DNA of 46,932 bases, taken from assembly GCA_034189135.1 (NCBI GenBank), contig JAXHVO010000028.1, positions 1-46,932 of the forward strand. Reading direction: 5' to 3'. Positions 24,917 to 25,286 of the stretch are shown here, piece by piece. Position 1 is the first letter of the stretch. Every line of letters begins with the position of its first letter. The notes beneath the pieces were generated by a model. It saw only the letters and a list, made by a program, of their open reading frames with translations. It did no database searches and was not told the origin of the DNA. The stretch is from Thermodesulfobacteriota bacterium (GTDB lineage Bacteria; Desulfobacterota; Desulfobacteria; Desulfobacterales; JAUWMJ01). A program made the position numbers and the translations under genes.

Positions 24917-24974
24917 TAGAGAAAAAAAGAAATGTTGCTCTTAATAAATCATTTATCAAAAGAGGGGGCTTGTG

Positions 24975-25286
24975 ATGAATGTGCTATTCATTATTTCTAC
25001 AGACGATGCAGAAACAGCTTATAATGCGATGAGATTGGCCAATGTAGCCGTCGAAAAAGGAGATGACACAAGTGTGTTTATGCTTGGGAGGGGAGTTCTT
25101 TTTGAACAGGGCAGCACTGAACAGTTCAATGTAATGGAGCAGATAAACCAATTTGAAGGTGATTTTTACGTCTGAGGGGTGTGCATGAAATCCCACGGTC
25201 TGGAGGGATCAAGCACTTGCCCCATTGGCTGGATGGATGATCTCTATGAACTGTCTATGGAAGCGGATAAGGTTTTCACATTTTGA
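24975..25286 (+). CDS. DsrE-family protein with in-frame TGA, probable selenoprotein
   Basis: Read through the TGA at 25173-25175, the gene encodes 103 residues: MNVLFIISTDDAETAYNAMR at the start, FEGDFYV-U-GVC in the middle and a family-like C-terminus with GLEGSSTCPIGWMDDLYEL and MEADKVFTF before a TGA stop at 25284. Read normally it ends at residue 66 and loses a third of the domain. DsrE relatives have Cys at the TGA position, so the motif would be UxxC (Sec67, Cys70). A SECIS-type hairpin follows at once. DsrE-like selenoproteins are a described family in delta-proteobacteria. AGAGGGGG stands six bases before the ATG; a GTG lies at 24972. Confidence 0.88.
25176..25223 (+). promoter_or_regulatory. 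Bacterial SECIS-type hairpin after the in-frame TGA
   Basis: Just after the TGA, GGGG-T-GTGC (25176-25184) pairs with GCAC-TT-G-CCCC (25213-25223). Inside, ATCCC (25190-25194) pairs with GGGAT (25205-25209). One more C-G pair leaves the apical loop GGTCTG (25197-25202), starting 22 nt after the TGA. Bacterial SECIS loops begin with G residues, and Escherichia coli fdhF also carries GGTCTG at a similar distance. Only the fold was checked by eye. Confidence 0.8.

Follow-up and report, generated by a model that had tools for sequence, protein, structure and literature searches.

Proteins of the DsrE family move sulfane sulfur, and DsrE-like selenoproteins carrying a UxxC motif, in which U is selenocysteine (Sec), have been on record since 2005, when UxxC was given as their redox motif (PMC1088965). 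Published inventories list two of them in the Sargasso set (PMC1088965), one in a genome survey of 2006 (PMC1794560) and, in the GOS table of 2008, 2 Sec and 0 Cys sequences under DsrE 1 together with 19 Sec and 15 Cys sequences under DsrE 2 (PMC2398784). They also appear in reviews of 2022 (PMC9312934) and 2026 (PMC13188914), the latter of which calls the functions of this selenoprotein group largely uncharacterized, and, among the matches listed, the titles and opening lines of the abstracts showed no study on the function of a DsrE selenoprotein. Among the cysteine-containing members, DsrE of Allochromatium binds sulfur at Cys78 in vitro and requires this residue in vivo (PMC3397948), and a CGXC motif has been noted in YedF (PMC5322559). 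The initial annotation of the locus described here, made from the DNA letters, had named DsrE-like selenoproteins as already described, in agreement with PMC1088965, PMC1794560, PMC2398784 and PMC13188914.

The gene under study lies in a window of 46,932 nucleotides, by which we mean the whole stretch of DNA that was analysed, and its source is a draft genome of 4.6 Mb in 140 contigs that is 95.5% complete. As judged from sequence comparison, this gene very probably encodes a free-standing DsrE-family selenoprotein with Sec at residue 67. Translation bears out the reading first proposed for the frame, which ends at residue 66 if the in-frame TGA is taken as a stop and otherwise continues for 36 more codons; GTG at 24972, three bases upstream of the ATG, is an alternative possible start. 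The part downstream of the TGA holds GLEGS, CPIGWMDDLYEL and EADKVFTF, which the initial annotation had likened to the normal C-terminus of the family, and the read-through protein does match Pfam PF02635 over residues 1-103 (E 6.4e-10, 39.7 bits, cut-off 22.7). The same Pfam family is matched at E 0.01 by 28/28 rows of our protein alignment A1, which comprises 28 of 77 rows. In a mechanical listing of genes the frame stops at the TGA, just as it had been expected that annotation would call the gene truncated. The coordinates of the features are collected in Table 1.

Table 1. Features of the dsrE-like gene and of the second UGA-reading set in the source genome.
Feature	Coordinates	Strand	Remarks
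dsrE-like gene, predicted selenoprotein	24975..25286	+	103 residues, predicted Sec at 67; start ATG 24975; final stop TGA 25284-25286
In-frame TGA, codon 67, first position of UxxC	25173..25175	+	predicted to be read as Sec; conserved in relatives
Cys70, second residue of UxxC (UGVC)	25182..25184	+	from alignment A1
Cys82, third conserved cysteine of close subfamily	25218..25220	+	28/28 rows of alignment A1
SECIS-type hairpin, full predicted stem, directly after UGA	25176..25223	+	by folding; lower part pairs poorly in relatives
SECIS apical hairpin, predicted	25191..25208	+	25191-25196 with 25203-25208, one A-A mismatch; loop GGTCTG 25197-25202
Second UGA-reading set of source genome	contig C62, 115833-115922 and 115979-117874 (L002, L090)		tRNA just upstream of second selB

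The window was also scanned for frames in which a UGA goes together with a Cys/Ser/Thr motif, which gave 20 places, 25173 included. The one place followed further, 7191, was rejected as a UGA-read frame, being two separate genes, one for a short protein with no Pfam match and one for a NUDIX protein.

The codon at the site is strongly conserved. When 84,980 species genomes were scanned, 81 relatives came up, of which 80 loci were kept; 76 of these cover the site, the remaining four (L085-L088) being left out as not covering it in usable form. TGA stands at the site in 75/76 of the covering relatives, which are 55-92% identical, and TGG in a single one (L062). Because the scan query carried Cys at the site and the search patterns excluded the site altogether, Cys forms were not selected against. 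The closest relatives of the gene come from genomes assembled from metagenomes under the titles Deltaproteobacteria, Desulfosarcina and Desulfobacteraceae, from which we take the host to belong to this group. One relative (L029) is in a named strain, Desulfoferrobacter suflitae DRH4. Searches of phage records and viral contigs for relatives of the gene found none.

In a sample of 148 genomes from the phylum, which overlaps the 76-locus set, a profile search found 29 places in 26 genomes, with an in-frame TGA in 28/29 (27 confirmed at the site by translation, and L141 by DNA alone) and a Cys codon in one. The latter is a natural Cys form within the phylum (L133, 51% identity), and outside the phylum Cys forms were found as haloarchaeal plasmid proteins with CGTC at about 36-41% identity. 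Together, the TGA relatives and the Cys forms provide the pairing of Sec with Cys by which a selenoprotein family is defined. The proposal that the TGA sits where relatives have Cys stands insofar as relatives carry either TGA, the predicted Sec codon, or Cys, while the TGG of L062 is an exception to it. On codon counts, the putative Sec form is commoner than the Cys form in this phylum, the opposite of the usual Cys majority. A tree of 40 rows was poorly resolved, also with respect to the ancestral or derived state of the Cys form L133. In the phylum sample, L136 carries a TAG besides its in-frame TGA, and in three remote UGA relatives (L138, L142 and L143) the motif reads UGKL, with the UGA kept but Leu standing where UxxC has its Cys. 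A profile-profile comparison of alignment A1 with alignment A2 was circular, the window protein being in both, and its result was set aside.

Directly behind the TGA lies a candidate SECIS element. The hairpin with the loop GGTCTG, which had been proposed from the letters, is the predicted minimum-energy fold of 25173-25225 (-22.9 kcal/mol, z -2.81), and 21 bases separate the TGA from its loop; this loop may resemble that of the fdhF SECIS, as the initial annotation suggested. The predicted fold has the features of a bacterial SECIS, that is, a hairpin directly after the UGA and a guanosine in a small apical loop. Its z score varies with the stretch folded, from -2.11 for 25170-25230 to -0.07 for 25160-25220 and -0.23 for 25173-25215, and the last two stretches give folds other than the hairpin.

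Comparison among relatives points to constraint on the apical part. Mean relative codon entropy over codons 72-79, which were picked after the alignment columns had been inspected, was 0.19 against 0.86 in 70 other codons (rank-sum P 3e-6; 71/77 rows, L077-L082 being left out for indels). Among rows with the common residue, the dominant codons are TCC for Ser73 (64/65), CAC for His74 (69/71), GGT for Gly75 (69/71), GAG for Glu77 (51/51) and GGA for Gly78 (65/68). Constraint on the protein does not account for this codon bias. At the position immediately preceding the UGA (25170-25172), Val is encoded by GTC in 62/71 rows, the other Val codons of the gene being mixed.

Pairing was analysed in 71/77 rows (leaving out L014, L017, L018, L022, L033 and the TGG row L062). 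The apical helix has 12 cells that are changed on both sides with pairing kept, compared with 1.4 in shuffles (0/500 as high) and 0 to 5 for slid partners; one of its six pairs, 23-32, fails in 47/70 rows. Support is weaker for the full stem of 17 pairs: 87.9% of its cells pair, against 37-49% in slid versions, but two of its pairs do not form in 30 and 39 of 70 rows, respectively, its count of doubly changed pairs is reached by 66/500 shuffles, and the version slid by -1 has more doubly changed cells (30 vs 22). Run on the 71-row alignment, RNAalifold missed the hairpin and gave only a different 3-pair helix (-1.36 kcal/mol), and Rfam had no match in the window. Eleven remote UGA relatives each have a predicted stem-loop at about the same distance behind the UGA, according to single-sequence folds made without shuffle control. 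Taken together, the codon and pairing comparisons support a SECIS-type apical hairpin under constraint, with weaker support for the full stem.

The machinery for Sec insertion, which the initial annotation had said should be looked for elsewhere in the genome, was found there: SelA (604 bits), SelB (375 bits), SelD (379 bits) and a tRNA-Sec (75 bits, anticodon TCA, discriminator G73). The SelD gene itself has an in-frame TGA, and it belongs to a cluster at C62:132474-137536 (L115 4475-9537) that also holds a YedF-like SirA-DsrE gene and ABC transporter genes that look phosphate-type by eye. In the phylum sample, the genomes with a match to the DsrE profile, hereafter the carriers, number 26 (25 with UGA and one with Cys). 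All 26/26 have selA, compared with 136/148 of the phylum sample (Fisher P 0.09); given this base rate, the presence of selA in every carrier is nearly expected and carries no weight. At the limits used, SelB was found in 24/26 carriers (not in G009 and G033) and tRNA-Sec in 24/26 (not in G106 and G118).

The selenoprotein reading draws on a conserved UGA, an apical hairpin that is itself conserved and shows paired changes, the complete Sec machinery of the genome, and Cys at the site in distant relatives. We infer from these sequence features that Sec is actually inserted at residue 67. SelB with Sec-tRNA(Sec) would read UGA 25173-25175 as selenocysteine when the adjoining hairpin is bound, and translation would stop at residue 66 when the hairpin is not bound.

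With regard to function, the predicted structure of the read-through protein, computed with a 28-row alignment, reached a pLDDT of 90.9 in the best of five models (44 to 82 in the others), and this model has the DsrE fold. The solved structures closest to it are 3mc3 (Z 15.2) and E. coli YchN (1jx7, Z 14.3), followed by DsrE/DsrF-like chains and by a chain each of DsrEFH and TusBCD (Z 12.4). The best ten by Z comprise six with titles of DsrE/DsrF-like, YchN, dsrE, DsrEFH or TusBCD, three proteins whose function is unknown, and a designed cage. A search of the PDB sequences with the family profile found none at E 1, so that the link of the UGA to Cys78 of DsrE runs through a Cys paralogue of the source genome (L102, contig C87), which has CAAC and 25% identity to the window protein. 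The window UGA aligns with the first Cys of this CAAC, and the CAAC in turn aligns with YchN (1jx7) residues 78-81, its first Cys corresponding to residue 78 of DsrE (2hy5); the matches of the paralogue to YchN and DsrE are weak (E 0.001 and 0.05), and the residue numbers were counted from the alignments. The source genome also has a second DsrE-family gene with an in-frame TGA in a UxxC motif (C81:69624-69962, L103 1498-1848, minus strand), 32% identical to the first, with a weak hairpin predicted behind its TGA (-8.7 kcal/mol); the CxxC of the Cys paralogue sits at the UxxC place of this gene as well.

Since the UGA aligns, via the paralogue, with DsrE Cys78, we propose that Sec67 would take up sulfane sulfur, that is, persulfide or polysulfide sulfur, and that Cys70 may help to release the sulfur as sulfide or to hand it on. 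The protein would then be a sulfurtransferase or sulfane-sulfur reductase acting via Sec67 and Cys70, and not a member of a DsrEFH complex, a function to which we give an even chance. A possible but rather doubtful alternative, which concerns the function and leaves the selenoprotein itself untouched, is that the protein is a thiol-disulfide oxidoreductase working through a Sec67-Cys70 selenosulfide instead of carrying sulfur. It agrees with the description of UxxC as a redox motif in DsrE-like selenoproteins (PMC1088965) and with the invariance of Cys70 in 28/28 close rows of alignment A1, but the best structural matches are DsrE-like and not thioredoxin-like, and the three remote relatives with UGKL keep the UGA without the second Cys, which argues that Sec is the core residue.

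The neighbourhood gives no clue to the function. The gene lies between a MOSC gene and a ChaN-like gene, a position that the initial annotation had singled out as deserving attention; this placement is not common to the relatives, since a MOSC relative occurs near dsrE in one other locus and a ChaN-like relative in none, many relative loci being on short contigs so that these neighbour counts are lower bounds. The 64 same-strand neighbours within 200 bases have matches to 101 Pfam families, the commonest of which are TrmO_N (5) and QueH (4). Operon logic, with MOSC and ChaN as a clue to function, was consequently rejected for a gene without fixed neighbours. DsrE-type partners were found neither among the 25 commonest of the 101 neighbour families of the relatives nor beside the window gene.

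A different explanation of the codon itself is that the UGA is read as Cys by a second set, consisting of a selC*-type tRNA-Cys with UCA and a second SelB, either always or at selenium shortage. According to section 6 of PMC7609411, after Mukai 2017, Desulfobacterales have a selC* tRNA-Cys (A1:U72, UCA) with selB* and a second CysRS downstream. The source genome resembles this arrangement: on contig C62, a second tRNA with anticodon TCA, A1:U72, discriminator U73 and an 8-bp acceptor stem (read from the letters) lies upstream of a second selB (304 bits), with the same tRNA features and the same selB placement as in that description (PMC7609411). Cys as the natural residue in distant relatives would also suit such a reading, as would the presence of two tRNA-Sec-like genes in 10/26 carriers. 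Several observations speak against it, however. A single tRNA-Sec-like gene was found in 14/26 carriers (none in 2), 12 of which have exactly one SelB, and a second SelB was found in only 3/26 carriers (the source genome G000, G101 and G132). In the genomes that harbour 35 of the 76 loci, a set that includes the genome of the TGG row L062 and overlaps the carriers in at least L020 (G132), one such gene was found in 24, more in 6 and none in 5; all these tRNA counts are lower bounds, part of the candidates having been scored. Six second tRNAs were inspected, and a UCA anticodon loop was seen in one (L170), GCA in four, while one was unreadable. The GCA-loop genes are L171, L172, L173 and L175, the second tRNAs of G101, G055, G017 and G120, and a GCA anticodon loop has also been described for the selC* tRNA-Cys of other groups (PMC7609411). 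Furthermore, a CysRS without its anticodon-binding domain, which belongs to the set as described, was sought in the source genome (95.5% complete) and not found, and the gene behind the second selB is no CysRS. Two CysRS score over the cut-off in this genome, the second being fused to cysteine synthase with its anticodon-binding domain kept; this fusion of 761 residues lies at C27:31413-32777 (L107 1486-3771), and the normal CysRS on C129.

Because carriers with a single tRNA keep the UGA, the codon persists where, within these searches, no Cys-type UGA reader was found, and we consider Cys reading improbable. A dual use of the UGA, with Sec inserted via the canonical SelB at plentiful selenium and Cys via SelB*/selC* otherwise, seems just as improbable; if true, it would leave the cell with a functional Cys version of an enzyme whose subfamily has hardly any Cys genes in the phylum sample. 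The source genome lends itself well to testing what is decoded by a second UGA-reading set of the Cys type. Finally, that the TGA is a sequencing error or a mark of gene decay, with a 66-residue stub as product, would accord with the end of the mechanically listed frame at the TGA, with the further internal stop in two relatives (L058 and L062) and with the TGG of L062, but can be practically dismissed, the TGA being common to 75/76 relatives and the part behind it being conserved, with its synonymous sites constrained.

Returning to Sec at residue 67 as the preferred reading, the locus can be set beside the known systems. With YchN (1jx7) and the DsrE/DsrF-like proteins 3mc3, 2qs7 and 3pnx, the model shares a whole-length fold match (Z 13.0 to 15.2), and the CxxC of YchN corresponds to the window UxxC via the Cys paralogue, with Cys in YchN where Sec is predicted here. 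DsrE of DsrEFH and TusD of TusBCD belong to the same family and have, again via the paralogue, their active residue at the same position (Cys78), whereas the window gene stands beside MOSC and ChaN-like genes without genes for complex partners; NCBIfam TusD models gave no match to the window protein at E 0.01. YedF, of the SirA-DsrE type, has a DsrE domain with CGxC where the window protein has UGVC, but the latter, with its 103 residues, lacks a SirA domain; the NCBIfam YedF model TIGR03527 gave it E 0.0099 and 15.7 bits, below the cut-off of 110, and a separate YedF-like gene is present in the source genome close to selD (L115 4475-5134).

The closest likeness is to the DsrE-like UxxC selenoproteins, with which the window gene has in common the Pfam DsrE domain, the UxxC motif and a predicted bacterial SECIS after the UGA. 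Plain stop-codon annotation ends such genes at the UGA, and the published counts of DsrE-like selenoproteins are small compared with the 75 UGA relatives from one scan here. That Sec outnumbers Cys in the subfamily is notable, although DsrE 1 of the 2008 table was already Sec without Cys (PMC2398784), and the window gene is a further member of the DsrE-like selenoproteins known since 2005.
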